The notes under the pieces are model-generated. The model had not been told where the DNA came from, ran no database searches, and saw nothing but the letters and a program-made list of their open reading frames with translations. 51,347 nt of DNA from Streptomyces afghaniensis 772. Lineage in GTDB: Bacteria; Actinomycetota; Actinomycetes; Streptomycetales; Streptomycetaceae. How positions within the stretch are numbered: the first letter of the stretch is position 1; the number at the start of each line of letters is the position of its first letter. Positions 7,496-47,470 of the stretch are shown piece by piece. Position numbers and translations under genes: made by a program. The stretch lies in contig KE354345.1 in NCBI GenBank assembly GCA_000415505.1, positions 1 through 51,347 of the forward strand, written 5' to 3'.

Positions 7496-7500
7496 GTCGG

Positions 7501-8535: not shown

Positions 8536-9536
8536 CCCGAGTAGACGTTGAGCAGCAGGTCGGCGGGGTCGGGCAGCGGGCTCGCCTCGGCGTACGCGAT
8601 GGCGTCGGCGATCTCGTCGCGCGTGCGCTGCCATACGTCGTCCAGCTCCGCACGGGTCGCGGTGCCGTCGGCGACGGCCCGGACCTCCAGCAGGTCGATG
8701 GGGTCGCGGGCCTTCCACTCGGCGACCTCCTCGTCCGAGCGGTAGGGGTGACGCAGGCCCTTGACTCCCTGGTGATCGAAGTAGCGGTAGGTCTTGGCCT
8801 CGATCATCATCGGGCCCGCGCCGGCCCGGGCCCGTTCCACGGCTTCGGCGGCGGCCCGGTGGACGGCGACCGCGTCCATGCCGTCGACGATCACGCTGGG
8901 CATGCCGTAGGCGGCGGCGCGGTCGGCGACATCGGTGAGCAGCATGTGCCCGGACTGCGGGGTGAACTCCGCGTAGCCGTTGTTCTCGCAGACGAAGACC
9001 ACGGGCAGGCCGAGGATCGCGGCCATGTTGGCGCCCTCGTGCCAGGCGCCGATGTTGGTGGCGCCGTCGCCGAAGAAGGTCACGGCGACGTTGTCCTCGC
9101 CCTTGTACCGGGCGGCGAAGGCGGCGCCCACGGCGATCGGGACGCCCGCTCCGACGATGCCGTTGGCGCCGAGCATGCCGCGGGTGAGGTCGTTGATGTG
9201 CATGCTGCCGCCGCGGCCGAGGCAGGCGCCGGTGACCCGGCCGTACAGCTCGGCGTACATCTCGCGGAAGCCGACGCCCTTGGCCACTGCGTGCCCGTGG
9301 CCGCGGTGGGTGGAGGTGATCTGGTCGTCGTCGCGCAGGGCAGCCATCACGCCGGCGGCGACGGCTTCCTGGCCGACATACAGGTGCAGGAAGCCGGGCA
9401 GTTTGCCGGCCTCCATGAGCTTTCCCGCCTCGGTCTCGAACAATCGGATGCGCACCATGCGCTCGTGCAGATCCTTGATGACCTGCGCGCTGACCTGCGG
9501 GGATTTCTTCGACGCCGTTGGCGCTCGTTGAGCCAT
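8532..9536 (-). CDS. 2-oxoacid (acetoin/pyruvate-type) dehydrogenase E1 component, alpha subunit
   Basis: 334 residues. It has the thiamine-diphosphate motif GDGATNIGAWHEGANMA ending in VCENN, and the family-typical STHRGHGHAVAKG and CLGRGGSMHI segments; the close match of this block to AcoA-type proteins favours acetoin or pyruvate as substrate. ATG 9536 is chosen because AAGGGG lies 6-12 bases upstream; a longer ORF from 9572 has no such site. First gene of the E1a-E1b-E2 operon. It is preceded by a promoter-like TTCAGT-N17-TACTGT on the minus strand that overlaps an inverted repeat. Confidence 0.9.
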   Translation of the reverse strand: MAQRAPTASKKSPQVSAQVIKDLHERMVRIRLFETEAGKLMEAGKLPGFLHLYVGQEAVAAGVMAALRDDDQITSTHRGHGHAVAKGVGFREMYAELYGRVTGACLGRGGSMHINDLTRGMLGANGIVGAGVPIAVGAAFAARYKGEDNVAVTFFGDGATNIGAWHEGANMAAILGLPVVFVCENNGYAEFTPQSGHMLLTDVADRAAAYGMPSVIVDGMDAVAVHRAAAEAVERARAGAGPMMIEAKTYRYFDHQGVKGLRHPYRSDEEVAEWKARDPIDLLEVRAVADGTATRAELDDVWQRTRDEIADAIAYAEASPLPDPADLLLNVYSG

Positions 9537-30920: not shown

Positions 30921-33900
30921 ATGAGCGATCTGCACCGGCCCGTGCACCCTGTCCGCCTGGTCACGGCTTCGGCTCTGTTCGACGGGCACGACGCGTCGAT
31001 CAACATCATGCGGCGCATCTTCCAGTCCCAGGGCGCCGAGGTGATCCACCTGGGACACAACCGGTCGGTGCGGGAGGTCGTGGACGCCGCTCTGGAGGAG
31101 GACGCCCACGGAGTCGCCGTCTCGTCCTACCAGGGCGGGCACGTGGAGTACTTCGAGTACCTGGTCGAGTCGCTGCGCGAGCGGGGAGCCGACCACATCC
31201 GTGTGGTGGGCGGCGGAGGCGGCGTCATCGTCCCCGAGGAGATAGCCCGGCTGCGCGGCAGCGGGGTGACCATCTTCTCGCCCGAGGACGGGCAGCGGAT
31301 GGGCCTGGCCGGGATGGTCAACTCGGTGGTCCAGGACTGCGACTTCGACCTCTGGGACGGCAAGCCGGCCGACGCGTCCGCCGTGCTGGCCGGTGACCGG
31401 TTCGCGATCGCCCGCGCCATCACCGGCGCGGAACTGGGCAAGCTGCCCCCGGATCTCCTGGAGCGGCTGCGGGCCGCCGCCGCGGCACGGGTCATGCCGG
31501 TGCTCGGCATCACCGGCACGGGCGGCTCGGGCAAGTCGTCGCTGACGGACGAGCTGGTACGTCGCTTCCGCCTCGACCAGCAGGACAAGCTGCGGATCGC
31601 CGTGATCGCGGTCGACCCGACCCGCCGCCGCGGCGGCGGGGCACTGCTCGGTGACCGGATCCGCATGAACTCCCTGGACGGGAGCCGGGTCTTCTTCCGC
31701 AGCCTGGCCACCCGTGGCAGTCGCGAGCTGCCCGAGCACCTGACCGACGTCATCGACGTGGTCAAGGCCGCCGGGTTCGACCTGGTGATCGTGGAGACGC
31801 CGGGCATCGGCCAGGGCGACGCGGCGATCGTGCCGTTCGTCGACACCTCGCTGTATGTGATGACACCGGAATTCGGTGCCGCCTCGCAGCTGGAGAAGAT
31901 CGACATGCTCGACTTCGCCGACGTCGTGGCGATCAACAAGTTCGAGCGGCGCGGCGCGCAGGACGCGCTGCGCGACGTCGGCCGCCAACTGGTCCGCAAC
32001 CGTGAGGCGTTCGGCATGCGGCCCGAGGACATGCCGGTGTACGGCACATCGGCGGCGACGTTCAACGACGACGGTGTCACCGCGCTCTACCAGCACCTGA
32101 AGACGGGCCTGGCCGAGAAGGGCCTGCCGCTGTCCGAGGGCGCGCTGGCACCGGTCGCGGTACGCCACTCCTCCGGCATCCGGCAGGTGGTCCCCGCAGC
32201 CCGGGTGCGCTACCTCTCCGAGATCACCGACACGGTCCGCGCGTACCACGCCGAGACCACGCGCCTGGCCGAGGCGGCCAGGAGAGTGCAGCACCTGGAG
32301 GCGGTCAGGGACGAGCTCGTCGAGGCCGGCACCGACGCCGCGAACGTGCAGTCGCTCCTCGACGACGCCCGCAGGCAGCTCCCGCACCAGATCACGGAGC
32401 AGATAGGGAACTGGCCCGCCGTCATCGCCTCCTACGCCGGGGACGAGCAGGTGGTGAAGGTCCGGGACAGGGAGATCCGCACCAAGCTGACCCGGGAGTC
32501 CCTGTCCGGCAACAAGGTCCCACGCGTCGCCCTGCCCCGCTTCACCGACCACGGGGAGCTGGTGCGGTTCTGGCGCGGGGAGAACCTGCCCGGCTACTTC
32601 CCCTTCACAGCCGGGGTGTTCCCCTTCAAGCGCGACGGCGAGGACCCGGCGCGGATGTTCGCCGGTGAGGGCGATCCGTTCCGCACGAACCGGCGCTTCA
32701 AGCTGCTCTCCGAGGGCCAGCCGGCCACCCGCCTGTCCACCGCCTTCGACTCGGTCACGCTCTACGGCCGCGACCCGGACGAACGCCCCGACATCTACGG
32801 CAAGGTCGGCACCTCCGGGGTGTCGGTGGCAACGCTCGCGGACATGAAGGCCCTCTACGACGGCTTCGACCTGACCGCACCCACGACCTCGGTCTCCATG
32901 ACCATCAACGGACCCGCGCCGACGATCCTGGCGTTCTTCCTGAACACCGCGATAGACCAGCAGACGGACCGGTTCCGAGCCGCCGAAGGCCGTGACCCGT
33001 CGCCCGAGGAGGCGGCCGAGCTGCGGGCCCACGCGCTCGCGAGCGTACGCGGCACGGTGCAGGCCGACATCCTCAAGGAGGACCAGGGCCAGAACACCTG
33101 CCTGTTCTCCACCGAGTTCTCCCTGCGGATGATGGCCGACATCCAGGAGTGGTTCATCGCCCACAAGGTCCGCAACTTCTATTCCGTGTCCATCTCCGGC
33201 TACCACATCGCCGAAGCCGGCGCGAACCCCATCAGCCAGCTCGCCTTCACCCTCGCCAACGGCTTCACCTACGTCGAGGCCTACCTCGCCCGGGGCATGC
33301 ACGTCGACGACTTCGCCCCCAACCTGTCGTTCTTCTTCTCCAACGGCATGGACCCCGAGTACTCCGTCCTCGGCCGGGTCGCCCGCCGCATCTGGGCCGT
33401 CGCGATGAAGGAGAAGTACGGGGCGGGCGAACGCAGTCAGAAGCTGAAGTACCACGTCCAGACCTCCGGACGCTCCCTGCACGCCCAGGAGATGGACTTC
33501 AACGACATCCGCACCACCCTCCAGGCCCTCACGGCCATCTACGACAACGCGAACTCGCTGCACACCAACGCCTACGACGAGGCCGTCACCACCCCGTCCG
33601 AGGAGTCGGTGCGGCGGGCGCTGGCGATCCAGCTCGTCATCAACCGCGAGTGGGGCCTGGCCATGAACGAGAACCCCCTCCAGGGGTCGTTCATCATCGA
33701 CGAACTCACGGACCTGGTGGAGGAGGCCGTCCTCCAGGAGTTCGAGCGGATCAGCGAGCGCGGCGGCGTACTGGGCGCGATGGAGACCGGCTACCAGCGG
33801 GGCCGCATCCAGGACGAGTCGATGCTGTACGAGCAGCGCAAGCACGACGGCACCCTGCCCATCATCGGCGTCAACACCTTCCTCCGCCCCGGGGGCGACA

Positions 33901-34148
33901 GCCGGCCTCAGGAGCTGGAACTCGCCCGGGCCACCGAGGAGGAGAAGCAGTCCCAGCTGGAGCGCGTGCGGGACTTCCACGCCGGCCACCGCGACCGGGC
34001 CCACGACGCCCTGGCCGCTCTCAAGAACGCGGCGACGAGCGGCGACAACGTCTTCGCCGTCCTCATGGACGCCACCCGGGTCTGCTCGCTCCAGCAGATC
34101 ACCGAGGCCTTCTTCGAGGTGGGCGGCCAGTACCGCCGCAACGTCTGA
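30921..34148 (+). CDS. icmF: Fused isobutyryl-CoA mutase IcmF
   Basis: 1075 residues. The N-terminal B12-binding domain has the cobalt-ligand His23 in DGHDAS; the usual last Gly of DxHxxG is Ser. SSYQGGH and GGGGGV follow. The middle is a MeaB-type G-protein chaperone with P-loop GITGTGGSGKSS (197-208). The C-terminal part is the mutase barrel. Phe567 (TAGVFPF) and Gln724 (DQGQNT) stand where methylmalonyl-CoA mutase has Tyr and Arg, the signature of isobutyryl-CoA specificity. It interconverts isobutyryl- and n-butyryl-CoA; known IcmFs also act weakly on pivalyl-CoA. GGGAAGG and a C8 run precede the ATG. The open frame continues upstream through the reductase gene but is not coding there. 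Confidence 0.95.
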   Translation: MSDLHRPVHPVRLVTASALFDGHDASINIMRRIFQSQGAEVIHLGHNRSVREVVDAALEEDAHGVAVSSYQGGHVEYFEYLVESLRERGADHIRVVGGGGGVIVPEEIARLRGSGVTIFSPEDGQRMGLAGMVNSVVQDCDFDLWDGKPADASAVLAGDRFAIARAITGAELGKLPPDLLERLRAAAAARVMPVLGITGTGGSGKSSLTDELVRRFRLDQQDKLRIAVIAVDPTRRRGGGALLGDRIRMNSLDGSRVFFRSLATRGSRELPEHLTDVIDVVKAAGFDLVIVETPGIGQGDAAIVPFVDTSLYVMTPEFGAASQLEKIDMLDFADVVAINKFERRGAQDALRDVGRQLVRNREAFGMRPEDMPVYGTSAATFNDDGVTALYQHLKTGLAEKGLPLSEGALAPVAVRHSSGIRQVVPAARVRYLSEITDTVRAYHAETTRLAEAARRVQHLEAVRDELVEAGTDAANVQSLLDDARRQLPHQITEQIGNWPAVIASYAGDEQVVKVRDREIRTKLTRESLSGNKVPRVALPRFTDHGELVRFWRGENLPGYFPFTAGVFPFKRDGEDPARMFAGEGDPFRTNRRFKLLSEGQPATRLSTAFDSVTLYGRDPDERPDIYGKVGTSGVSVATLADMKALYDGFDLTAPTTSVSMTINGPAPTILAFFLNTAIDQQTDRFRAAEGRDPSPEEAAELRAHALASVRGTVQADILKEDQGQNTCLFSTEFSLRMMADIQEWFIAHKVRNFYSVSISGYHIAEAGANPISQLAFTLANGFTYVEAYLARGMHVDDFAPNLSFFFSNGMDPEYSVLGRVARRIWAVAMKEKYGAGERSQKLKYHVQTSGRSLHAQEMDFNDIRTTLQALTAIYDNANSLHTNAYDEAVTTPSEESVRRALAIQLVINREWGLAMNENPLQGSFIIDELTDLVEEAVLQEFERISERGGVLGAMETGYQRGRIQDESMLYEQRKHDGTLPIIGVNTFLRPGGDSRPQELELARATEEEKQSQLERVRDFHAGHRDRAHDALAALKNAATSGDNVFAVLMDATRVCSLQQITEAFFEVGGQYRRNV

Positions 34149-35998: not shown

Positions 35999-36970
35999 AT
36001 GACGACACCGACATCCCGCTCACTTGCCATCGCGGCCAAGGGGCTGTGCAAGGCGTACGGAGACAAGACGGTCCTCGACGGCATCGACCTGGCGGTGCCG
36101 ACCGGCACCGTCTTCTCCCTCCTCGGCCCGAACGGCGCCGGCAAGACCACCGCTGTCAAGATCCTCTCCACTCTCATCACCGCCGACGCCGGCGAACTGC
36201 ACGTCGGCGGCCACGACCTGGCCACCGCGCCGCAGGCGGTGCGGGCCGCGATCGGAGTCACCGGGCAGTTCTCCGCCGTCGACGGCCTGATCACCGGCGA
36301 GGAGAACATGCTCCTCATGGCGGACCTGCACCACCTCTCCCGCGGCGAGGGCCGCCGTACCACCGCCGAACTGCTGGAGCGCTTCGACCTCGTGGAGGCC
36401 GCGAAGAAGCCGGTCTCCACGTACTCGGGCGGCATGAAGCGCCGCCTCGACATCGCCATGACGCTGGTCGGCGATCCGCGGATCATCTTCCTAGACGAGC
36501 CGACCACGGGCCTCGACCCGCGCTCCCGGCACAACATGTGGCAGATCATCCGCGAGTTGGTCTCCGGCGGCGTCACCGTCTTCCTCACCACCCAGTATCT
36601 GGAAGAGGCCGACGAGCTCGCCGACCGCATCGCGGTGCTGAGCGACGGCAAGCTCGCCGCCGAGGGAACCGCCGACGAGCTGAAGCGGATCGTTCCGGGC
36701 GGGCATGTGCGGCTGCGGTTCACCGACCCGGCCGCGTACCGGTCCGCCGCCGTCGCCCTGCGCGAGGCCACCGGGGACGACGAGGCGCTGTCGCTGCAGA
36801 TCCCCAGCGACGGCAGCCAGCGCGAGCTGCGGGCCATCCTCGACTGGCTGGACTCGGCCGGCGTCGAGGCGGACCAGCTGACCGTGCACACCCCCGACCT
36901 CGACGACGTGTTCTTCGCCCTGACCGGCGGCACCAAGGTCCCCAACCAGTCCAAGGAGAACGTCCGATGA
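35999..36970 (+). CDS. DrrA-type ABC transporter ATPase
   Basis: 323 residues. Walker A is LGPNGAGKTTAVK, the signature TYSGGMKRRLDIAMTL, Walker B FLDEPTTGLDPRSR, and the switch His follows in the LTTQYLEEADELADRI stretch, where Gln replaces the usual His (TTQYL is normal for DrrA). The C-terminal 90 residues form the DrrA-specific domain. It exports hydrophobic drugs or lipids with the permease next door (ATGA overlap at 36967). Regulation by the neighbouring SARP is suggested by the 11-base repeats upstream. Confidence 0.92.
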   Translation: MTTPTSRSLAIAAKGLCKAYGDKTVLDGIDLAVPTGTVFSLLGPNGAGKTTAVKILSTLITADAGELHVGGHDLATAPQAVRAAIGVTGQFSAVDGLITGEENMLLMADLHHLSRGEGRRTTAELLERFDLVEAAKKPVSTYSGGMKRRLDIAMTLVGDPRIIFLDEPTTGLDPRSRHNMWQIIRELVSGGVTVFLTTQYLEEADELADRIAVLSDGKLAAEGTADELKRIVPGGHVRLRFTDPAAYRSAAVALREATGDDEALSLQIPSDGSQRELRAILDWLDSAGVEADQLTVHTPDLDDVFFALTGGTKVPNQSKENVR

Positions 36971-37758
36971 GTGCCCTCTCCCTCGCCGTACGCGACTCGA
37001 ACACCATGCTGCGCCGCAACCTGCTGCACGCACGGCGCTACCCGTCCATGACCCTGAACCTGCTGCTCACGCCGATCATGCTGCTGTTGCTCTTCGTCTA
37101 CGTCTTCGGAGGCGTGATGAGCGCGGGCATCGGTGGCGGCGGCGCGGACCGCTCCGACTACATCGCCTATCTCGTCCCGGGTCTGCTGATCATGACCATC
37201 GGCTCCACCGTGATCGGGGCCGCGATCTCCGTCTCCATGGACATGACCGAGGGCCTCATCGCCCGCTTCCGTACGATGGCGGTCTACCGCGGATCCGTGC
37301 TCGTCGGGCACGTCGTCGGCAGCGTGCTGCAGGTGCTCGCCAGTCTGGTCCTCGTCGGTGCCATCGCCGTGGCCATCGGCTTCAGGTCCAGGGACGCCAC
37401 GGCCCTGGAGTGGCTGGCGGCGTTCGGACTGATCGCGCTGTTCACCCTGGCGCTCACCTGGATCGCGGTCGGGATGGGCATGGCCAGCCCGAACCCCGAG
37501 GCGGCCAGCAACATGGCGACGCCGCTGATCCTCCTCCCGCTCATCTCGAGCGCCTTCGTCCCCATCGACGCGATCCCGGGCTGGTTCCAGCCGATCGCCG
37601 AGTACCAGCCGTTCACGCCGGCCATCGAGACCCTGCGCGGCCTGCTGCTCGGCACCGAGATCGGCAACAACGGGTGGATCGCGATCGCCTGGTGTGTCGG
37701 CCTGACCGCACTCGGCTACCGCTGGTCGACGTCGCTGTTCAACCGCGACCCGAAGTAA
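36967..37758 (+). CDS. DrrB-type ABC-2 transporter permease
   Basis: 263 residues with six membrane segments of the ABC-2 type. The NLLLTPIMLLLLFVYVFGGVM N-terminal helix pair, the MDMTEGLIARFRTMAV coupling helix and FVPIDAIPGWFQPIAEYQPFTPAIETLRGLLLG are family hallmarks. It forms the pore with DrrA-like ATPase. Its last 20 bases overlap the convergent SARP gene, so expression of the two must interfere at the 3' ends. Confidence 0.92.
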   Translation: MSALSLAVRDSNTMLRRNLLHARRYPSMTLNLLLTPIMLLLLFVYVFGGVMSAGIGGGGADRSDYIAYLVPGLLIMTIGSTVIGAAISVSMDMTEGLIARFRTMAVYRGSVLVGHVVGSVLQVLASLVLVGAIAVAIGFRSRDATALEWLAAFGLIALFTLALTWIAVGMGMASPNPEAASNMATPLILLPLISSAFVPIDAIPGWFQPIAEYQPFTPAIETLRGLLLGTEIGNNGWIAIAWCVGLTALGYRWSTSLFNRDPK

Positions 37759-40700
37759 CCGGCATGACAGCGCGGGCCGCCTCCCGCAACTCGTCCCGCC
37801 CCAGGGCGGCGTACTCCGACACCGCGTCGGCGTAGGCCGCCCGGTCGGCGTCCTGGGCCGCCTTCCGGGCGCGGTCCGCCGACATCGTCGGCTGGAAATC
37901 GCGCAGCACCCGCAGCCGTTCGGCCAGCGCGATCATCCGTACGGCACCGGCGTCGCCGGAGGCGAGCCCCGCCATACCGAGGGCGTGCAGCACTGTCCCG
38001 ATCACGGGGAGTTCCATGGGAGAGCCGGTCGGACCGGAGAGCAGGGTCCGCAGCCCCCTCCGCAGCCGGTCGACCGGCTCCGGGACCAGTTCGAGACGGC
38101 CGGCGTGCGCGTGCGCCGTCACCGCCACCGCCAGGGTCTGCAGCACCCACCGGTCGAAGAAGGGGTCGCCGCCGGGCATCGAGTCGGCTGCGGCCAGCGG
38201 CTGCACGGCACTGCGCCACAAGCCGAGCCCGACCTCCGTCAGTCCGCGCGCGAGCGCGATCTCGGCGCGTCCGAGGAGGTCCATGCTGTAGTCCTCCTGC
38301 TGCGTGGTGTTGGCGCCCTGTGCCTGCCGCAGCCAGTACTCGGCCTCGTCGGGGTCGCCGCGCTGCAGGCAGGCGAGGACGAGGCCCCAGCGGACGCCGA
38401 TGAGGTCGTGCTCGTCGCCGAGCCGAGGCAGCGCCCGGAGCGCCGCCCTGAGGTGCCCGTACGCCTCCTCGCCCCGCTCCGTCTGCAAGCACAGCTCGCT
38501 CAGCCGGGCGTGGCCCATGACCTGGAGGAACGGGTTGTCGACCGGCGTCAGTGCGGCGATGATCCGCCGAGCCGAGGCGCGCGCACGGTCGATGTCGTGC
38601 TCCGACTCCCAGACGTAGGTGGCGACGCACTCCGCGATGCCGGCGAGCAGCGGCTGCTCGCTCTCGCAGAGCCGGTGCAGCACTTCGTAGTCGGGCGGCA
38701 GCATCTCCGGGATCGCGCCCAGCACCACCGCGACGGCCCGCAGCAGCGTGTCCGGTGGGGCCGGGGGCAGCCGACGGAGCGTGACGAGCTGGCGTACGAC
38801 GTGCGGGCCGTAGCCCATGAACAGACTCGCCGTGCACAACACCGCGGCTGCGCGGGCGACTTCGACGTGTTCGGGCTCGGGATGGTAGTGCGACAGCGGC
38901 CGGCCGGTGTCCGCGGCGAGGGCGGTGAGGCGGGGGTAGTTGGAGCCGGTGGACCACAGGGCGGCGAGGACGGCGGTGAGGGCGGCCGTGGTGGGGCCGT
39001 CCGTACGGGCCAAGGCGTGCCGCAGGGCCAGCACGAGGTTGTCCTGCTCGGCCCTGACCCGCTCCCAGGCGGTCAGCGGTTCGGAGCGGAAGAGCCAGTC
39101 GTGGTACGCGACCCCGAAGTCCCGCGCCCAGGCGAGGAACCGGCTGACGGCCTCCTCTTCCTCGCCCGCCTCGGCACGCCGGGCCGCGCTGAACTCCCGC
39201 ACGGTCTCCAGCATCCTGAACCGCGCGCCGGCCGGGGTGTCGCCGACGGTGAGCAGCGACTGATCGGCCAGCTGCTCCAGCAGGAACAGCGCCTCCTCGC
39301 CCAGCACCCGCTCCGCCGCCTCGCCCGAGAAGCCACCGGGGAAGACGGACAGCATGCGCATCGCCGCCCTGGCCTCGTCGTCGAGCAGGTTCCAGCTCCA
39401 CCCCACGACCGCGTGCAGTGTGCGGTGGCGCTCCGGAACGTCCCGTGCCCCGCCGCGCAGCAGCGCGAACCGGTCGCCGAGGCGGCGGGCGATCTCCGGC
39501 ACCGACATGACCCGCACCCGCGCCGCGGCCAACTCCACGGCGAGCGGCAGCCCGTCGAGGTGGCGGCACAGCTCGGACACTTCGTCCGGCGGCAGTTCCA
39601 CGCCGGGCCGGGCTGCCCGGGCCCGCTGCGTGAACAGCTCGGCCGAGGTGTCCGGACGGAGTTCCGGCAGCGCGTACACCGCTTCCGACGTGAGGCCCAA
39701 CGGGGCCCGGCTGGTGGCCAGCACCCGCAGGTCCTCGGAGGACGAGAGCAGGGCCTGTACGAGGTCGGCGGCGCCCCGGATGACCTGCTCGCAGTTGTCG
39801 AGGACCAGCAGAGCGGGCCCGGAGCCGAGCACGCCGAGGATGCCGGACACCGGGTCGGCCGAGGCGTGGCCGCTCACGACGCCGGGCCGCCTCTCGCCCG
39901 CGCCGAGCGCGGAGGCCACCTCCGCGGCCACGTCCTCGTCCACCGTGACGCCGGCGAGCGGCACGAAGTACACCACGCGTTGCTCGGCCCGGCGGCTGAC
40001 GGCGTGGGCGAGCCGGGTCTTGCCGAGGCCGCCGGGGCCGACGACGTTGACGGCGCGGGAGGCGCTCAGCAGCCGCTGCACCGCCGCGATGTCCTCGTCC
40101 CGGCCGAGGAGCGGGTTCGGCTCGTGCGGCACGCCGTGCCGGACCACAGGTGCCTCGCCGCGCAGCAGTTCCCGCTGTACGGCCTTGAGCGCGGCGCCTG
40201 GATCCGTGCCCAACTCGTCGCGGAGTTCCCGGCGGTAGGCCTCGTACCGCATCAGCGCGGTGGACGGACCCGCCGTCGCCGCCTCGCAGCGCAGCAGCTC
40301 GACGAGCACCTCCTCGTCGCGCGGATGCTCCGCAGCGGCCACGGCCAGCGGCCCGGCCGCCTCCGCGTGCCGTCCGAGGCGGGCGAGCGCGAGCGCCCGC
40401 GCGCGTAGGAGAATGCCGCGGACGGGGGCGCGCTCGGTGCGCAGGGCGGCTACAGGGTCGTCGGTGTCGTACGCCTCGTCAGGAGTGCCCTCCCACAGTG
40501 CGAGCCCGGCCTCGGCCGCGGCCAGCGATCCCGCGTGGTCCCCGGCCCTGGCCCGTTCCGCGCCGGCAGCGGCGTGCAGCAGCAACGCGGAGCTGTCGAC
40601 CTGGTCCTCGGCGAGGGTGAGCCGGTATCCGGCCGGCGTGCCGGCGATGGCATCGGCGCCCAGCTGCGCCCGCGCCCTGGACACGAGGACCTGCACCGCT

Positions 40701-40873
40701 TTCGCCGGCCGCTCCGGCAACTCGTCCGGCCACAACCCCGCCACCAGGCGCTCGGTGCTGCAGCCCGTGCGCAAGTCGCCGGCGAGCAGCGCGAGGAGGC
40801 CGCGGAGCCGGGGGGCGGTGATCTCCTGTCCGCGATGGGCGACACGCGGCAGGAGGGTCAGGTCGGTGGTCAC
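37739..40873 (-). CDS. AfsR/SARP-like regulator with BTAD, NB-ARC-type ATPase and TPR region
   Basis: 1044 residues from GTG 40873. The N-terminal winged-helix OmpR-like DNA-binding domain (about 5-90) and the bacterial transcriptional activator domain (about 95-240) are followed by a STAND ATPase with P-loop VGPGGLGKTRL (about 280) and Walker B LLVLDNCEQ. A long helical TPR-like C-terminus (about 550-1030) follows. Such proteins activate antibiotic or export genes by binding 11-base direct repeats near -35. The adjacent DrrAB operon carries exactly such repeats. No Shine-Dalgarno precedes the GTG, which overlaps a TGA (GTGA) of a small upstream reading frame. Confidence 0.9.
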   Translation of the reverse strand: MTTDLTLLPRVAHRGQEITAPRLRGLLALLAGDLRTGCSTERLVAGLWPDELPERPAKAVQVLVSRARAQLGADAIAGTPAGYRLTLAEDQVDSSALLLHAAAGAERARAGDHAGSLAAAEAGLALWEGTPDEAYDTDDPVAALRTERAPVRGILLRARALALARLGRHAEAAGPLAVAAAEHPRDEEVLVELLRCEAATAGPSTALMRYEAYRRELRDELGTDPGAALKAVQRELLRGEAPVVRHGVPHEPNPLLGRDEDIAAVQRLLSASRAVNVVGPGGLGKTRLAHAVSRRAEQRVVYFVPLAGVTVDEDVAAEVASALGAGERRPGVVSGHASADPVSGILGVLGSGPALLVLDNCEQVIRGAADLVQALLSSSEDLRVLATSRAPLGLTSEAVYALPELRPDTSAELFTQRARAARPGVELPPDEVSELCRHLDGLPLAVELAAARVRVMSVPEIARRLGDRFALLRGGARDVPERHRTLHAVVGWSWNLLDDEARAAMRMLSVFPGGFSGEAAERVLGEEALFLLEQLADQSLLTVGDTPAGARFRMLETVREFSAARRAEAGEEEEAVSRFLAWARDFGVAYHDWLFRSEPLTAWERVRAEQDNLVLALRHALARTDGPTTAALTAVLAALWSTGSNYPRLTALAADTGRPLSHYHPEPEHVEVARAAAVLCTASLFMGYGPHVVRQLVTLRRLPPAPPDTLLRAVAVVLGAIPEMLPPDYEVLHRLCESEQPLLAGIAECVATYVWESEHDIDRARASARRIIAALTPVDNPFLQVMGHARLSELCLQTERGEEAYGHLRAALRALPRLGDEHDLIGVRWGLVLACLQRGDPDEAEYWLRQAQGANTTQQEDYSMDLLGRAEIALARGLTEVGLGLWRSAVQPLAAADSMPGGDPFFDRWVLQTLAVAVTAHAHAGRLELVPEPVDRLRRGLRTLLSGPTGSPMELPVIGTVLHALGMAGLASGDAGAVRMIALAERLRVLRDFQPTMSADRARKAAQDADRAAYADAVSEYAALGRDELREAARAVMPVTSGRG

Positions 40874-41107
40874 GCGTGCAGGTTAGCCAAGGTGCCCGCC
40901 ACCGCCATCCGGATCATCTCGGAGGTCGAGGCCAACTCGCGTCCTCCTTGGCACTGGTCGCGCATCAGTTCAGCCACACCACACAAGGAACACGCCATCC
41001 TTGAGGCCACCGATTGCATGCGGGGCGAGCTCCGGGCTGGACTTGATGTCCTGGACACGCTTCGCATACGTGACGCCCCAAAAGGGCGGCGGCAGTCCCT
41101 TGGCCAT
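40870..41107 (-). pseudogene. Possible small protein gene coupled to the SARP gene, frameshifted
   Basis: Low-confidence call. On the minus strand MAKGLPPPFWGVTYAKRV... (from 41107) runs to about 40975 in one frame, and VAELMRDQCQGGRELASTS... continues in another to a TGA at 40870-40872 that overlaps the SARP GTG. Both halves have about 80% G or C at third positions, as expected for coding. One extra T near 40975 would explain the shift. Joined length is about 78 residues; no family recognised. If unreal, the 40874-41273 gap holds no gene, only the inverted repeat at 41159. Confidence 0.3.
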
Positions 41108-41158
41108 GTCCCACGAGGACGTGCGCTGTGAGCCACGCCTGATGTGCAGGCGCTGACG

Positions 41159-41186
41159 TGACAACGGCTGCTTTCACGCGTTGTCA
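41159..41186. repeat. Inverted repeat TGACAACG-N12-CGTTGTCA
   Basis: A perfect eight-base inverted repeat in the gap between the SARP and B3/B4 genes. It shares the GACAAC/GTTGTC half-sites of the Rieske promoter repeat at 10145 but with different spacing. Hairpin or operator. Confidence 0.45.
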
Positions 41187-41273
41187 GGGCACGAAGCCAC
41201 CCGTGCCGGCCTTCAACGGCGCAGGCCCCACCTACGCACCGGTACCGCAGGAAGACTAGGAAAATCTCCCCCC

Positions 41274-42038
41274 ATGCCTGACGCTGTCACGAGTCAGTTC
41301 GCGAGAACCGAACGCTGTTTGCGCCTCTCGATCGCACCGGAGGTTGCTGCCCGCTACCCGGAGTGCCACACCGCCGTCGTCGTGGCCCTCGGCCTGGACA
41401 ACTCCGGATCGTGGCCGGAGACGGAATCGGAACTGACCGAGCTGGAAGCCGAGGTGAGAGCCGGTCGACGGCAGATGCCCGGTGAGGACCATCCGGCCAT
41501 TGCCGCCTGGCACGACCTGCTCCGCAGTTTCGGGACCAACCCGCGGCGGATGCGGCCGAGCGTCGATGCGCTGGGGCGGCGACTGGCCAAGTCCGGAAGG
41601 CTGCCGCGGATTTCACCTCTCGTCGACACCTGCAACCTCGTCTCATTGCGTTACACGCTGCCCACCGGCGGCTACGACCTGAATCACATCCGATTTGGCT
41701 TCACCCTGCGGCAAGCGCGGCCGGGTGATGAGCACATTCCTCTCGGGCAGCCCGAGGAACGCGAGAGGCCCGTGCCCGGCGAGATCGTGTACGCCGATGG
41801 CCATCAGGTGCTGACGCGCCATTGGAATCACCGGGACGCCGACAACACCAAGGTCACGGAGAACACTGTCGATGCCGTGCTGTTTCTGGAAGGGATTTCG
41901 CCCGTGATCGCCCCGGACGTACTGGAAGAGGCCCAACGGGAGCTCGCGGACCGCGTGGCTCCTCATGCCTCGTCCGTCACGCTCCACACCTTCGACCCGG
42001 CACAGGAAACGACGGTGACCTGGGTGCCGACGCGCTGA
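41274..42038 (+). CDS. Freestanding B3/B4 (PheRS beta editing-type) domain protein
   Basis: 254 residues covering one B3/B4 domain: FGTNPRRMRPSVDALGRRLAKSGRLPRISPLVDTCNLVSLRY, GGYDLNHI, EERERPVPGEIVYADGHQVLTRHWNHRD and TKVTENTVDAVLFLEG are the family core. In phenylalanyl-tRNA synthetase this domain hydrolyses mischarged tRNA; freestanding copies have no settled role, trans-editing being the obvious hypothesis. The LysE gene starts 3 bases after its stop, so the two are co-transcribed. The 110-residue segment before the core is family-typical. It would protect the cell against an amino-acid analogue made or exported by its neighbours. Confidence 0.88.
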   Translation: MPDAVTSQFARTERCLRLSIAPEVAARYPECHTAVVVALGLDNSGSWPETESELTELEAEVRAGRRQMPGEDHPAIAAWHDLLRSFGTNPRRMRPSVDALGRRLAKSGRLPRISPLVDTCNLVSLRYTLPTGGYDLNHIRFGFTLRQARPGDEHIPLGQPEERERPVPGEIVYADGHQVLTRHWNHRDADNTKVTENTVDAVLFLEGISPVIAPDVLEEAQRELADRVAPHASSVTLHTFDPAQETTVTWVPTR

Positions 42039-42041
42039 TCC

Positions 42042-42650
42042 GTGGATGCCTACTTCGCCGGGATGCTACTCGGCCTCGCCATGATCACGCCCATCGGGCC
42101 GCAGAACATCTTCCTCATCAACCAGGGCTTCACCTTCGGCGTACCACGGGTGTTCGTGGCGGTCGTGGCCGCCGGGGTCTGCGACACCGTCCTCATCTCT
42201 CTTGGCGGTGCCGGGACCTCAGCGGTGCTCAACCGCGTCCCCGGGATCAAGTCCTTCCTCCTGGCCGCCGGCGTGGTGTTCCTGACGTACCTGGCGGTGA
42301 AGTCGTTCCGGTCGCGTCCAGAGGACTTCGACCAGTCCACACCGCCCGAGATGCGTTGGCGCCGTGTCGTTGCGCAATGCACCTCGGTCACCGTCTTCAA
42401 CCCCCACGCTGTCCTGGACGTGGTCGGCATCCTCGGTGTGGCCATCGCTGCCCAGGCTCCGGATCACCGCCCGATCTTCGCCGCGGGGACGGTCAGTGCC
42501 TCCTGGCTCTGGTTCACCCTCCTCGCTCTCGGCGCTTCGACGCTGAGACGCTGGCTGACGCCTCAGCGGCGGGTGTGGATCGACCGTGGATCCGGCACTC
42601 TCATGCTCGTTTTCGCCGCCCTCTTCCTGGGTGAACTCCTCCGCTCATGA
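42042..42650 (+). CDS. LysE/ArgO-family amino-acid exporter
   Basis: 202 residues with six membrane segments. The N-terminal GMLLGLAMITPIGPQNIFLINQGF is the LysE hallmark, and VTVFNPHAVLDVVGILG carries the conserved Asn-Pro of the second repeat. Start GTG 42042 lies 3 bases after the B3/B4 stop; no separate ribosome site is needed if translation is coupled. It exports basic or other amino acids by proton antiport. Together with the B3/B4 protein it suggests detoxification of a toxic or non-canonical amino acid. Confidence 0.9.
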   Translation: MDAYFAGMLLGLAMITPIGPQNIFLINQGFTFGVPRVFVAVVAAGVCDTVLISLGGAGTSAVLNRVPGIKSFLLAAGVVFLTYLAVKSFRSRPEDFDQSTPPEMRWRRVVAQCTSVTVFNPHAVLDVVGILGVAIAAQAPDHRPIFAAGTVSASWLWFTLLALGASTLRRWLTPQRRVWIDRGSGTLMLVFAALFLGELLRS

Positions 42651-42664
42651 TTCGTCCTTCTACG

Positions 42665-42697
42665 CGGCCGCGCTCGCCCCTGTAAGCGTCGCGGCCG
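42665..42697 (+). other. Hairpin between the LysE and radical SAM genes
   Basis: CGGCCGCG pairs with CGCGGCCG around a 17-base loop, in the 82-base gap. Partial terminator or leader structure. Confidence 0.35.
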
Positions 42698-42732
42698 GCT
42701 CTCCCTGCCCCGCACTCGAAGGGAATCGCGTC

Positions 42733-44615
42733 ATGCTCAAGATCGGCTTAGTACAGCAGAGCGCCTGGGATCTGCCCATCGACTCCATGCCACTGGCTGC
42801 CGGCTACATGAAGGCGGTACTGGACGCCGACCCGGACCTCGGGCCCGAGACCGATGTACGCATCCACAACCTGCGCGGCGGCTGGTCCATCACGCAGATG
42901 GCTCGCATGATCTTCGGTGACGGCGACATACCCGATGTCCTCGCCTTCTCCGTGCTCGGCTGGAACTACCGCAACTTCGCCTGCCTCGCCGAACTCCACA
43001 AACAGCTCAAGCCGGACGGCGTGACCGTCTTCGGCGGTAACCATGTCAGCAACCAGGGCCAGAAGGTGTTCCGCGAGTGCCCGTCCGTCGACGTCGTCGT
43101 CAACGGTGAAGGTGAGCTGACCTTCCGGGACCTGACCGCCGCCCTCCTCGCCGACCGTCGTGAACCGCCCCTTGCCGACATCGCCGGCCTGTCCTTCCGC
43201 TCTCCGGAGGACGGTGGTTGTGTCACGACCGGCGAGCGCGAGCGGATCGACGATCTGGACGTCATTCCGTCACCGTTCCTCACCGGAGCGATACCGCTCC
43301 TCGACCGCGATGGGCATTTCCCCTATGAGTTCGCTCTCCTGGAGACGAACCGCGGTTGCCCCTACAAGTGCTCCTTCTGCTACTGGGGTGGCGCCACCGG
43401 TCAACGCGTGCGCTCCTTCTCACGTGAGCGGCTCGCCGCCGAACTGGACATGTTCGGCTATCACGAGGTGCCCACGGTCTTCCTGTGCGACGCCAACTTC
43501 GGCATGCTGCAGGCCGACGAGGAGTTCACCGAGGACCTCCTCCGCATGAACGAGAAGTACGGCTTCCCCATCGCGCTGGAAGCCAACTGGGCCAAGAACA
43601 AGTCAGAGCGATTCCACCGCATCGTTCGTACGCTCAAGGAACGCGGATTCAAGAGTTCGTTCACCTTGGCCCTGCAGACGCTCTCCGATCAGGCGCTGAC
43701 CGACATGCGGCGCCGCAACATGAAGCTCAACCAGTGGGAGGAACTCACCGACTGGCTGGCCGAGGAGGAGATGGAGGCGTTCGTCGAACTCATCTGGGGC
43801 GCCCCCGGCGAAACGACCGAGTCCTTCTTCCAGGGCTACGACAAGCTGGCGGAGAAGGTTCCCAGGATCGCCGTCTATCCGCTGTTGCTCCTGCCGAACA
43901 CCGACTACAGCGAACAGCGTGACATCCACGGCTTCGTCACCGTCCGCGGGCAGTCCGACGACTTCGAGTACGTCCTCGCGAACCGTACCTCCACCTTCGA
44001 CGAGAACCTCCGCATGCAGCGCTTCATGTACCTGGCGCGGATCCTCGGGGAGAACCAGTACTTCAAGCGGCTGTGGCACCCGGCACGGCGGCTCGCCGGG
44101 ATGACCCAGTCGCAGGTCATCCACAGTCTGCTGGACTGGATCGACGCGTCGGACCATCCCTCGGTCGCCGCCTTCCGCGACAGCTTCCCGGTCATCGCCG
44201 AATCACCGGCCGTCGCCTCCGGTCATCGCATGCTGTACAGCGACCCTCTGCTGGACCGGAGATCGAGCGGTGGTGGTCGCAGTCGATCGTGCCGAGGTTC
44301 CCGGAGGACTGGAGGGACGCGGGAACGCAGATGTACGCCTTCGAACGCTGGAGCCGTCCCGTCTACCAGCCCCCAGGCACCGAGCGGCCCGACGGCTGGA
44401 CCGAGGCCGACGGCGAGTACATCAGCGAGGAGGTCTCCTTCTCCTACCCGATGGCAGAGCTGCTCGACCGGATCGCGGCCGGGGACCTCACCTCGCCGGA
44501 TGCGGAGGAGGCGGTCTACGTGTTTCGTGGCATGAGCGGCTTCTACCAGCACTTGGACAACCACGAGACCGGCGCCCACTACTTCACCCGCGCCGAACGC
44601 CTGGTACACGCCTGA
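42733..44615 (+). pseudogene. B12-binding radical SAM enzyme (KedN5-like C-methyltransferase), frameshifted
   Basis: About 627 residues once joined. The N-terminal cobalamin-binding Rossmann domain (about 1-160; AFSVLGWNYRNF, VFGGNHVSNQG, VVNGEGELTFRDL) is followed by the radical SAM barrel with CPYKCSFCYWGG (4Fe-4S ligands C-x3-C-x2-C). A long C-terminal domain follows. The sequence around CYWGG and LIWGAPGETTESF resembles, from memory, KedN5-type methylcobalamin-dependent C-methyltransferases. One C is missing near 44255-44257; the last about 120 residues (EIERWWSQSIVPRFPEDW to the end) lie in another frame. GAAGGGA precedes the ATG. It would methylate an unactivated carbon of a small molecule; the substrate is unknown. 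Confidence 0.8.
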
Positions 44616-44787
44616 CCAGAGCACACCGCGGGGCTCCGTCGTCTCACGCGCTCTCACAGCCTCAGCTGAACACCTCTTGGAACCCCTACGTACTAAGGAC
44701 ATCCGTAGATGACAGCCAGGGGACGACGGAAGTCGACGGGCCCGCGACACAGGGCGCCGGCGACGATGGTCGAGGCGGAGGGCAGCA

Positions 44788-45684
44788 ATGGGAAGTCCGG
44801 CCCTGAACTGGACGCTGGCGGCGGTCGCCGCATTCGTGGCCGTCGTGAGCACGGCGCGGCTGGCCGCCGCCGGCAGCGGAGAGGCCCGGTTCGCGGCCGG
44901 AGGCGATCTCGTCATGGCCGGCGGCATGGCCGCGATGTTCCTGCCCATGACGGCGGTCGGCTTCGGGGACCACAGCCTGTGGTGGGTGACGGTGTTCAGC
45001 GCCGTCGGCCTGGGTGGCGTGGCCCTGTCCGTACGCCATGTTCGGCTGCACGGCTGGCGACACGGCCGCCGCTGGGCGCATCACATCATCGGCAGCGCCG
45101 CCATGGTGATCATGACGCTCGCCATGCCGGGTTCCGACTCCGCGCCGGTCCTCGCGTTGGGCGGGCACTCGATGGCCGGCATGGCTCATGGGCACGGGCA
45201 CGCGTCCGACACCGCGGGGACGGCGGGCATGGCCGGGATGCAGGGCATGGACCACTCCTCGGGGATGGCCGGTCACGACATGACGGCCGGCGCCGCCCAC
45301 AGCTCCGCGTCGGGAGACTCCGCTGCTGTGTGGCGTGCCGTCCTGCTCGCCCTCGCCGTGTACTTCCTGCTCTCGATCGTCGCGGCCGTGTGGGCACGGC
45401 TCCGTGGCACCGACCGGCCGGCGGGTGCGGGCCGCGCCGTGGGCAAGGGCCGCTGGGCGCGGCGGCTCCTCGCCCTGCCCGACGCGATCGTGGTGTTCGC
45501 CGCGTCCTTGGCCATCTCCGTCTGGGACAGGGCACGGCCGGGAGGCGACAAGCGCCGGGCCCACGCGGCAGCGGGCCAACGGAGCCGCCGTCGCCCGCCG
45601 GGTACGTCACCGAGCGCGGCGCTGCTGGCCCACATCGGCATGGGCGGCACGATGTGCGCCATGCTCGTCATGATGGCCGCCTGA
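44788..45684 (+). CDS. DUF5134 membrane protein, Met/His-rich
   Basis: 298 residues with about six membrane helices: three pairs near 8-50, 55-80 and 95-115, then 187-205 and others. A loop at about 125-180 is packed with Met, His and Gly (MAGMAHGHGH, MAGMQGMDHSSGMAGHDM), a typical soft-metal-binding composition. DUF5134 proteins often occur next to copper genes in Streptomyces. GGAGGG 5 bases upstream supports the start. It ends 14 bases before the convergent BNR-type gene. A copper-handling role is inferred from composition and neighbours; transport activity is not shown. Confidence 0.83.
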   Translation: MGSPALNWTLAAVAAFVAVVSTARLAAAGSGEARFAAGGDLVMAGGMAAMFLPMTAVGFGDHSLWWVTVFSAVGLGGVALSVRHVRLHGWRHGRRWAHHIIGSAAMVIMTLAMPGSDSAPVLALGGHSMAGMAHGHGHASDTAGTAGMAGMQGMDHSSGMAGHDMTAGAAHSSASGDSAAVWRAVLLALAVYFLLSIVAAVWARLRGTDRPAGAGRAVGKGRWARRLLALPDAIVVFAASLAISVWDRARPGGDKRRAHAAAGQRSRRRPPGTSPSAALLAHIGMGGTMCAMLVMMAA

Positions 45685-45698
45685 CGGCTCGTCGCGGA

Positions 45699-46565
45699 TC
45701 AGTGACCGCCGGTCGACGTGACCGCGAGGCGCTTCTTGAACGTCCTGCCGCCGTCCTTCGACTCGAACACCCCGGCTTGAGTGGCGGCAAGGACATGCTC
45801 GGCGCCGACGGCGGTGAGTGCCTGTGGCCGGCCGCCCGGCACGGTGGAGACCTTCTTCCATGTGGTGCCGCCGTCCGTGCTGCGGTTGAGGCCGCCGGAG
45901 GTGTCGATGCCGTAGAGGCCGTCCTTCGCGGTCCAGGAGAGGAAAGCCATCACCGGCTCCTTGCCCGGGGCGAAGGTCTTTCCGCCGTCGCTGCTGCGGG
46001 CGACTCCTTCGGCGGTGGTGGCCAGGACGACGCGGGGGTCGGTGGGGCTGACCGCTATGTCCAGAGCTTCCAGCCGGGCCCCCTCCCTCCAGGAGACGCC
46101 GTCCTTGGTCGTGCGCACCAGGCCGTTGGTGGAGTCGTAGCCGTAGACGGTGCCGTGGGCGGATTCCAGGGCGTGGAAGTCGGACTCGCCGGACAGGGAC
46201 AGTGCTTCCCAGGTCTCGCCCGCGTCGGTGCTCCTGATGAGCCCCTTGTTGCCGCCGGAGGTCGGGTGGCCGCTGGCGTAGAACGTCTTGTCGCCGGCCA
46301 CGGTGAAGCCCATGAAGTCGTCCTTGCTGTCGCCCACCAGCTGAGGCTCTCCCTTGGCGTCGGGGGTGTAGACGCCTTCGTGGGTGGCGACGTAGAGGTG
46401 CTGGTCGGCGGGGTCGAGACCGAGACCGTGGATGTGGCTCACGGTCGTCCCGGGGGCAGCGGACGAGCCGTTCGAGTCCGCGCTGTCTCCGTTGCCGGAG
46501 CATGCGGCCAGTGTGAGGGCGAGAGCCAGGGCAGTGACTGCCACGGTGGCAGGGCGCTTGTTCAT
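45699..46565 (-). CDS. BNR/sialidase-like beta-propeller lipoprotein (F510_1955-type)
   Basis: 288 residues. The signal peptide ends in lipobox LAAC (Cys about 22), so the protein is lipid-anchored outside the membrane. Propeller repeats carry Asp-box words: STDAGETWEAL, TTKDGVSWREG, SSDGGKTFAPG, STDGGTTWKKV and SKDGGRTFKKR (five). The automatic family name glycosylhydrolase is misleading: no sialidase catalytic Arg triad is evident. It is third in the minus-strand set after DUF6153 and DUF305, which suggests an extracytoplasmic copper-related role. Confidence 0.83.
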   Translation of the reverse strand: MNKRPATVAVTALALALTLAACSGNGDSADSNGSSAAPGTTVSHIHGLGLDPADQHLYVATHEGVYTPDAKGEPQLVGDSKDDFMGFTVAGDKTFYASGHPTSGGNKGLIRSTDAGETWEALSLSGESDFHALESAHGTVYGYDSTNGLVRTTKDGVSWREGARLEALDIAVSPTDPRVVLATTAEGVARSSDGGKTFAPGKEPVMAFLSWTAKDGLYGIDTSGGLNRSTDGGTTWKKVSTVPGGRPQALTAVGAEHVLAATQAGVFESKDGGRTFKKRLAVTSTGGH

Positions 46566-46696
46566 GATTCCTCGGGGGCGTACTGGTGCACTGGAGCGGC
46601 GACCGCCGATCACGGTCCTGCCGGCACGGGGAGGTGACCGCCCGGGCTCCTCGGGTGCGCCCCTCGGAGCCCTGAGCGGTCAGTGGGTGATGCGGA

Positions 46697-47383
46697 TCAG
46701 AGCCGGTCGAGGATCTTCTCGAACTTCTCGACCTCGGCGGACTGGGTCTTCACGACGTCGGCGGCGAGCTTCTTGGCCGTGGCGTTGCGGCCGTTCTTCT
46801 GCTCGTCCTCCGCCATGGTGATCGCGCCCTTGTGGTGCTCGATCATCATCTCCGCGAACATCCGGTCGAACTCGGTGCCCTTGGCAGCCTCGAGCTTCTT
46901 CATGTCCGCGTCGGACATCATTCCCGACATCCCGGACCCGTGGTCCATGCCGCCGGACCCGTGATCCATGCCGGGCATGCTCTCCCCGGCGGACACCGGC
47001 TTGCCCCAGCCCTTCAGCCAGGACTTCATGGTCTGGATCTCGGGGTCCTGGGCCTTTTCGATCTCCGCGGCCAGGGTCTTGATCTCCGCGTCGGAGGCGC
47101 GGCCGTCCGCGAGCTCGGACATCTCCAGCGCCTGCTCGTGGTGCGGGATCATCATCTGCGCGAACATGACGTCCGCGTCGTTGGACGCGCCGGGCGCCGG
47201 GTTCTCACCCGTCGCCCGGGTGGGCGAGGCGGAGGCGGAGGCGGAGTTGCCGCTCCCGTGGTCCATGCCCTCCATGTCGTTCCCACCGCAGGCGGCGAGC
47301 AGCAGCCCGCCCGCTGTGACGGCGCCCACCACCGCGAGACGGCGGCTCAGGCGGCGGTTGAGGGCGTGCTTGTAGGCAGTCAT
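46697..47383 (-). CDS. DUF305 lipoprotein, Met/His-rich
   Basis: 228 residues. Signal peptide with lipobox LAAC (Cys about 32), then two ferritin-like four-helix halves with the DUF305 words MFAQMMIPHHEQALEMS and MFAEMMIEHHKGAITMA. Met/His/Gly inserts (MDHGSG, MPGMDHGSGGMDHGSGMSGMM) look like metal baskets. The family is linked to copper and silver tolerance outside the cytoplasm. It lies 87 bases downstream of DUF6153 and 131 bases upstream of the propeller lipoprotein; the three are likely one unit. Confidence 0.88.
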   Translation of the reverse strand: MTAYKHALNRRLSRRLAVVGAVTAGGLLLAACGGNDMEGMDHGSGNSASASASPTRATGENPAPGASNDADVMFAQMMIPHHEQALEMSELADGRASDAEIKTLAAEIEKAQDPEIQTMKSWLKGWGKPVSAGESMPGMDHGSGGMDHGSGMSGMMSDADMKKLEAAKGTEFDRMFAEMMIEHHKGAITMAEDEQKNGRNATAKKLAADVVKTQSAEVEKFEKILDRL

Positions 47384-47470
47384 GTGCGGAATACCTCTTG
47401 TCGTCGGTTCTGTCTGTGCGGAGTACGCGTCTGCGCGGGCAGCGCTGAATGGGCCGCGCGACGGTTCGGC

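Follow-up and report, generated by a model that had tools for sequence, protein, structure and literature searches.

What could bring together, side by side on one strand of a Streptomyces chromosome, a protein domain that edits mischarged tRNA, an amino-acid exporter and an enzyme that methylates carbon atoms? The question is raised by contig KE354345.1 of Streptomyces afghaniensis 772, where the genes encoding a freestanding B3/B4 protein, a LysE-type exporter and a KedN5-family cobalamin-dependent radical S-adenosylmethionine (SAM) enzyme are neighbours on the + strand. The window analyzed here is this one contig in its entirety (C640, 51,347 bases), taken from a 9.85 Mb draft assembly in 1724 contigs. 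A sequence-only reading of the same DNA had described three adjacent genes on one strand, the first two separated by 3 bases, and both the coordinates and the Pfam and NCBIfam scores agree with that description. The trio is a real unit, found in other genomes, and we hypothesize, with confidence evenly divided for and against, that it may represent a compact and transferable biosynthesis-and-immunity cassette ("C-methylate, export, edit") in which tRNA editing would provide self-protection. According to this proposal the KedN5-family enzyme would C-methylate a free amino acid or some compound closely derived from one, the LysE protein would export the methylated product, and any product loaded on tRNA by a synthetase would be stripped by the B3/B4 protein, a putative trans-editing deacylase resembling CtdA, the producer being thereby spared the poisoning of its own proteins.

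Recurrence and mobility of the three genes

In a search of 392 genomes of the genus (E <= 1e-50), a close orthologue of the B3/B4 protein was detected in four, namely the window's genome, G148 (91% identity), G361 (60%) and G262 (59%), a sister group at 43-51% being set apart. KedN5 exceeds the cut-off in 10 of the 392 genomes. Both genes are present in two, the window's and G148, and lie side by side in each, whereas independence would lead to about 0.1 genomes with both (4 x 10 / 392), even before adjacency is required. Likewise, a close copy of LysE (E <= 1e-40) is found in only three of these genomes (the window's, G148 and G009), each time within the cassette or its remnant. The complete trio is encoded in the same order in G148, with protein identities of 91/97/95%, and in Streptomyces sp. 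HD, with identities of 82/90/92%. The latter strain was added, at 82% for the B3/B4 protein, by a scan of 84,980 species genomes with two short peptide patterns, from which the best 80 of 151 confirmed B3/B4 relatives were used; S. prunicolor (72%) and Streptomyces sp. ODS25 (70%) were also added, and G361 and G262 recovered. In S. prunicolor and ODS25 the B3/B4 and KedN5 genes are accompanied by an EamA exporter gene. Since the genomes harboring both genes have them adjacent and the trio recurs, the three genes are not neighbours by chance, an explanation that we discarded on account of that recurrence. The joint conservation that the sequence-only reading had set as its test was therefore observed, for the trio in two other genomes and for B3/B4, KedN5 and EamA in two more.

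The cassette is compact and transferable, and occupies different locations in different genomes. The DNA common to the window and G148 is the block 40960-44629 given in Table 1, and that common to Streptomyces sp. HD covers 41274-44619 at 83.6%, with nothing more in 20.8 kb of HD. Consequently, the upstream stretch 40960..41273 is not shared with HD, whose match to the window begins at 41274; a piece of it of about 80 bases, 40966-41047, is also found in G009 at 91%. In the one-contig chromosome of G148, the two flanks of the window (left, 36000-40893; right, 44666-47400) and the trio are located at three separate places, at 91-93% identity, and for this reason either the cassette is inserted at another site in the window genome or the contig is chimeric near the cassette ends. 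On account of these three places we dropped the idea that the trio belongs to the fixed chromosomal backbone. The window junctions 40894-40959 and 44630-44665 join stretches that are far apart in G148. G009 and G148 have in common the downstream side of the cassette site and short upstream pieces. The third-position G+C content, 0.79-0.86 in the trio versus mostly 0.88-0.97 in the other called genes of the window, is mildly atypical and fits an acquisition from outside; the neighboring genes were called from codon-position G+C by a script that missed some gene starts and the B3/B4 gene of G148. As for flanking signatures of mobility, no long or strong repeat was found in 40700-45000 and no tRNA gene in the window. 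A plasmid-borne copy was considered and rejected, no DNA match being found in the plasmid collection, in which 180 records carry a B3/B4 relative and 77 a LysE relative, all below 60% identity (best 50% among the 25 B3/B4 records listed). The genes are under purifying selection, with ratios of nonsynonymous to synonymous substitution (dN/dS) of 0.06-0.24 over the pairs tested, the highest for B3/B4. The cassette can also be lost, given its broken state in the window contig and its erosion in G009. In G148 a cobalamin riboswitch (L057:7595-7869), located some 10 kb upstream of the trio, precedes genes similar to those of cobalt transporters.

The three proteins

PF03483 is the sole Pfam match of the 254-aa B3/B4 protein, which has neither the catalytic nor the tRNA-binding domains of PheRS. 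Its best matches in the PDB are 9mkl (E 8.2e-19) and CtdA (9f7e_A, E 1.5e-16, query residues 70-224). Among the residues invariant in a 20-row alignment (33 sequences were tried; two were left out for in-frame stops and 11 more besides), W184 and N185 align with the WN of the CtdA motif RRWNWR, and the SPLVDTCN and PTGGYDL-type stretches differ from those of the sister clade. The match to PheRS is weak (E 0.009), and the editing role is deduced from distant relatives only, which gives some room to a biosynthetic hydrolase or a ligand-binding pathway protein in place of an editing enzyme; the invariant W184 and N185 argue against such a role, and we regard it as highly improbable. The sequence-only reading had proposed such editing and knew of no described system with the logic of the whole trio; for the editing it missed CtdA, which provides a published precedent: it is a freestanding B3/4 protein reported to remove canavanine from tRNA-Arg on its own, without ArgRS, and to guard the proteome in vivo, a knockout mis-incorporating canavanine (PMC10018355).

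The exporter gene starts 3 bases after the B3/B4 stop codon in the window, in G148 and in Streptomyces sp. HD alike. Its product is closer to the Lys/Arg exporters than to those of homoserine/threonine, scoring 136.7 bits with the model of lysine exporters (TIGR00948) versus 44.0 bits with the homoserine/threonine model. Eight of the nine other LysE-family proteins of the same genome were scanned as controls, L213 being left out since it belongs to the same locus as L211, and six of them prefer the homoserine/threonine model and two the lysine model, one of these weakly (L212, 41.6 versus 22.8 bits). Given that six of the eight controls go the other way and two do not, the Lys/Arg branch is a minority in this genome and is not unique to the cassette.

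The radical SAM protein carries a CX3CX2C motif (CPYKCSFC) at nt 43357; the "CYWGG-type" by which the sequence-only reading had characterized the enzyme comes down to a stretch at the iron-sulphur motif (CPYKCSFCYWGG). The same reading had treated the gene as whole and passed over a frame break without mention. The frame that opens at 42733 covers positions 1-503 of the NF033712 model, a second one, which ends at 44615, covers positions 506-623, and the alignment places the break near 44,240-44,260. Intact copies are encoded in G148 (627 residues) and in Streptomyces sp. HD (621 residues as called), the former scoring 932 bits against 854 bits for the first fragment of the window. As the contig belongs to a draft of 1724 contigs, an error of sequencing or assembly is possible. 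If the break is real, export and editing may persist in the S. afghaniensis strain as immunity without production.

Table 1. Positions of the cassette genes and of the upstream stretch in the window
Feature	Position	Strand	Evidence
Upstream stretch, possible promoter region, left edge of the conserved block	40960..41273		blastn block 40960-44629 with G148 at 92.9%
Freestanding protein of 254 aa with a B3/B4 editing domain, putative trans-editing deacylase of aminoacyl-tRNA	41274..42038	+	PF03483, 89.8 bits (cut-off 29.3)
LysE-type exporter, 202 aa, GTG start	42042..42650	+	PF01810, 113.7 bits
KedN5-family cobalamin radical SAM C-methyltransferase (predicted), main part	42733..44243	+	PF04055 and PF02310, both above cut-off; NF033712, 854 bits (cut-off 700)
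C-terminal portion of the same KedN5-family gene, out of frame with the main part	44244..44615	+	matches NF033712 positions 506-623

Elsewhere in the window, look-alikes of a branched-chain keto-acid dehydrogenase set and of a fused isobutyryl-CoA mutase were recognized by eye at 6069-9536 and 30921-34148. A conserved cluster surrounds another KedN5 gene in five genomes of the genus (L074, L077, L078, L079 and L080, in G211, G371, G090, G118 and G139, 20 kb each). By similarity and by eye, with Pfam applied to L074 and L077, this cluster encodes an MbtH protein, sulfotransferases, an arginine-deiminase-like enzyme and a rubrerythrin-like protein, and it also encodes a 643-aa protein that combines a GyrB ATPase part with a methyltransferase domain and whose GyrB piece may point to a product directed at gyrase.

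Neighbourhoods of the relatives and the proposed function

Seven B3/B4 proteins form one clade (support 99/99) in a tree built from 71 of the best 80 loci together with the window, G148 and the paralogue of the window genome; L090, L095, L106, L114, L137, L142, L143, L148 and L150 were left out because of an in-frame stop or fewer than 180 residues in the match. The KedN5 proteins encoded with members of this clade, five in number, also form one clade (100/100, 13 rows). In S. prunicolor (L083) KedN5 begins about 36 bases past the B3/B4 stop, genes for an EamA transporter and an ATP-grasp enzyme come next, and about 460 bases upstream of B3/B4 lies the divergently oriented gene of a halogenase of the HalD family (317 bits), the Pfam family that also includes the lysine chlorinase BesD. 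For the halogenase group of BesD the reported substrates are lysine, ornithine, leucine, isoleucine or norleucine in free form (PMC10187165). A general link between B3/B4 and HalD halogenases was rejected, this single case standing against none among the other HalD loci inspected. In the window genome, a HalD-family halogenase gene is located by NRPS-like (nonribosomal peptide synthetase-like) genes, as judged by eye, without B3/B4, LysE or KedN5 (L185, G000:C598:14001-34000). A SAM riboswitch at L083:17492-17649 lies outside the B3/B4 cluster of S. prunicolor. In ODS25 (L082) B3/B4 is found with two ATP-grasp enzymes, a major facilitator superfamily (MFS) protein, a threonine-dehydratase-like pyridoxal phosphate (PLP) enzyme, an amino-acid permease and EamA, and KedN5 is encoded about 7.9 kb away on the opposite strand. 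One ATP-grasp enzyme in each of the two strains exceeds the cut-off of PRK07206, and these enzymes resemble dapdiamide synthase at 191 and 202 bits, under its cut-off of 840.

These two loci bear on a reading in which the trio confers resistance only, a foreign toxic amino acid being expelled by LysE, removed from tRNA by B3/B4 and inactivated through C-methylation by KedN5. The presence of ATP-grasp enzymes in both strains, and of the halogenase gene in S. prunicolor, looks more like the assembly of a product, and KedN5 relatives elsewhere are also found among biosynthetic genes (by eye, and by Pfam for one cluster type). In its favor, the cassette is compact and differently sited among genomes, and G009 has kept LysE with KedN5 gone; moreover, CtdA itself is described as answering an amino acid from outside (PMC10018355). 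On balance, we consider resistance alone to be unlikely.

In two further members of the B3/B4 clade, CB02923 and NRRL F-5727 (L061 and L063), B3/B4 lies by a nitrosuccinate lyase (684 and 778 bits, cut-off 650), in the same setting as an FAD-NAD(P)-binding protein (PF13454), which we take to be nitrosuccinate synthase-like, and by a GntR-aminotransferase regulator (Pfam in CB02923, by eye in NRRL F-5727). It is possible that these loci are clusters for a nitroso or N-N amino acid. In CB02923 an ATP-grasp-like gene is found 6 kb beyond B3/B4. Based on the KedN5, ATP-grasp, halogenase and nitrosuccinate lyase neighbours of its members, the clade appears to belong to small-molecule clusters which, as far as the families tell, would be small and centred on amino-acid chemistry.

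Since the two nitrosuccinate loci have no KedN5 in view, they also lend some weight to a different explanation, namely that the substrate of KedN5 is not an amino acid, that B3/B4 is directed at a precursor or at some unrelated mischarging, and that their linkage reflects a shared cluster and not one substrate. KedN5 itself acts in the pathway of the enediyne kedarcidin, and the NRPS-like and polyketide synthase-like (PKS-like) genes seen by eye beside other relatives are likewise in accordance with it. The shared trio block, though, contains no other biosynthetic gene, and the product would need no further dedicated step there; we attribute to this explanation only a small probability. Returning to the proposed cassette for a methylated amino acid, the lack of any other enzyme in the shared block implies that the substrate of methylation should be a common metabolite. 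The branch of the exporter and the single halogenase neighbour led us to a basic amino acid of the Lys, Orn or Arg type, a first guess that is more probably wrong than right.

The sister group of the B3/B4 clade comprises 51 loci (L086-L134, L136 and L148) at 43-53% identity. Homologues of one EamA transporter and of one helix-turn-helix (HTH)-cupin regulator, labels that derive from the Pfam matches of the two query proteins, are encoded within 3 kb in 28 and 40 of these loci, respectively. In Actinopolyspora (L125) a LysE protein 52-53% identical to that of the window directly follows B3/B4, and its best model is the lysine exporter (128.7 bits). None of the EamA, HTH-cupin or LysE neighbours was found at 24 more distant B3/B4 loci, some of which are on short contigs. 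Taken together, the neighbourhoods of the relatives indicate that a freestanding B3/B4 protein and an exporter of an amino-acid type recur as a pair in actinobacteria, the exporter family varying. Extending the hypothesis, clusters for toxic amino acids might carry a dedicated B3/B4 trans-editing factor and an exporter, their producers surviving by tRNA editing and not by a change of synthetase, a generalization to which we give slightly less than even credence.

Several observations weigh against the proposed cassette. The KedN5-family gene is not one complete open frame in the window contig, and in G009 (L184, G009:C1:8850001-8870000) an eroded cassette retains a whole LysE and approximately the last 100 bases of B3/B4, KedN5 being gone. 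Two of the seven members of the B3/B4 clade have no KedN5 in view (L084, and L085, whose contig begins at the B3/B4 gene), and, KedN5 being a broad family, no B3/B4 or LysE was seen by eye in the 12-20 kb read at the KedN5 loci of eight of the 10 genus genomes, other KedN5 relatives lying by the NRPS-like and PKS-like genes already mentioned. The LysE protein of the window falls below the curated cut-off of TIGR00948 (213.65), and a protein encoded outside the cassette in the same genome (L210) reaches a similar score with this model, 126.8 bits, none being listed for homoserine/threonine. Among other HalD loci, B3/B4, LysE or KedN5 was found in none of the 19 inspected (of 40 places in 38 of the 392 genomes). 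No guanidine riboswitch was detected (Rfam, gathering scores) in the window, L057, L081, L082 or L083, and no canavanine-degradation genes were recognized by eye among the neighbours, a family search for them not having been run. Finally, we know of no activity established for any member of the B3/B4 clade. A CtdA orthologue for canavanine was likewise considered and rejected, the similarity being distant and the riboswitch not being found.

Comparison with known systems

The families of the individual parts, a LysE-type transporter in a cluster for a toxic amino acid, self-resistance by extra synthetases and the removal of an unusual amino acid by freestanding B3/4 editing are all known already. 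No account of a biosynthetic cluster that relies on an editing protein to protect its producer was found in the open-licence literature, a weak negative given that "B3/4" is unsearchable as a word. The sequence-only reading stands in part, the genes being conserved together and the editing having a precedent. If the proposal is correct, tRNA trans-editing would join the known modes of self-protection in antibiotic producers, and, should its generalization to clusters for toxic amino acids hold, the B3/B4 clade would become a handle for mining genomes for amino-acid antimetabolites, C-methylated and nitrosuccinate-derived compounds among them. It would also supply a marker gene for small clusters of toxic amino acids, some of them perhaps overlooked because they lack NRPS or PKS genes. 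With its three genes, moreover, the substrate of methylation, the cargo of the exporter and the substrate of editing could be tested against each other.

Within the KedN5 family (NF033712), the protein of the window resembles the other members in its score above the curated cut-off, its B12 domain and its CX3CX2C motif, and it differs in belonging to the B3/B4-linked clade, whose other members are 78-95% identical to it compared with 53-62% for the other KedN5 loci, and in its broken frame in the window contig. The exporter resembles the LysE/ArgO proteins in its family and in having the L-lysine exporter as best model, but it misses the cut-off for lysine exporters and travels with a gene of the tRNA-editing type. 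CtdA is likewise a freestanding B3/4 protein of similar size and alignable sequence, located by genes for one unusual amino acid, and the role proposed here, the clearing of mischarged tRNA, would be the same, even though the relationship is distant and no proof of orthology. In contrast to the B3/B4 gene of the window, which neighbours those of a C-methyltransferase and an exporter, CtdA is described with canavanine-degradation genes (in two species) in legume-associated bacteria, its relatives often being under guanidine riboswitches (PMC10018355). The cluster for AMB, a toxic non-protein amino acid, also includes a dedicated LysE-type transporter gene, but AMB is made by NRPSs, and the available part of that account names no tRNA-editing gene (PMC4357302). 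Extra copies of synthetases, such as AcmD and SbzA, are reported to confer self-resistance, and there, as would hold for the proposed cassette, the translation machinery of the producer is guarded by a protein related to tRNA charging and encoded in the cluster (PMC12945691). The difference is that AcmD and SbzA are extra synthetases that withstand inhibitors, whereas the protein proposed here would be a deacylase that cleans misloaded tRNA (PMC12945691 for the former).

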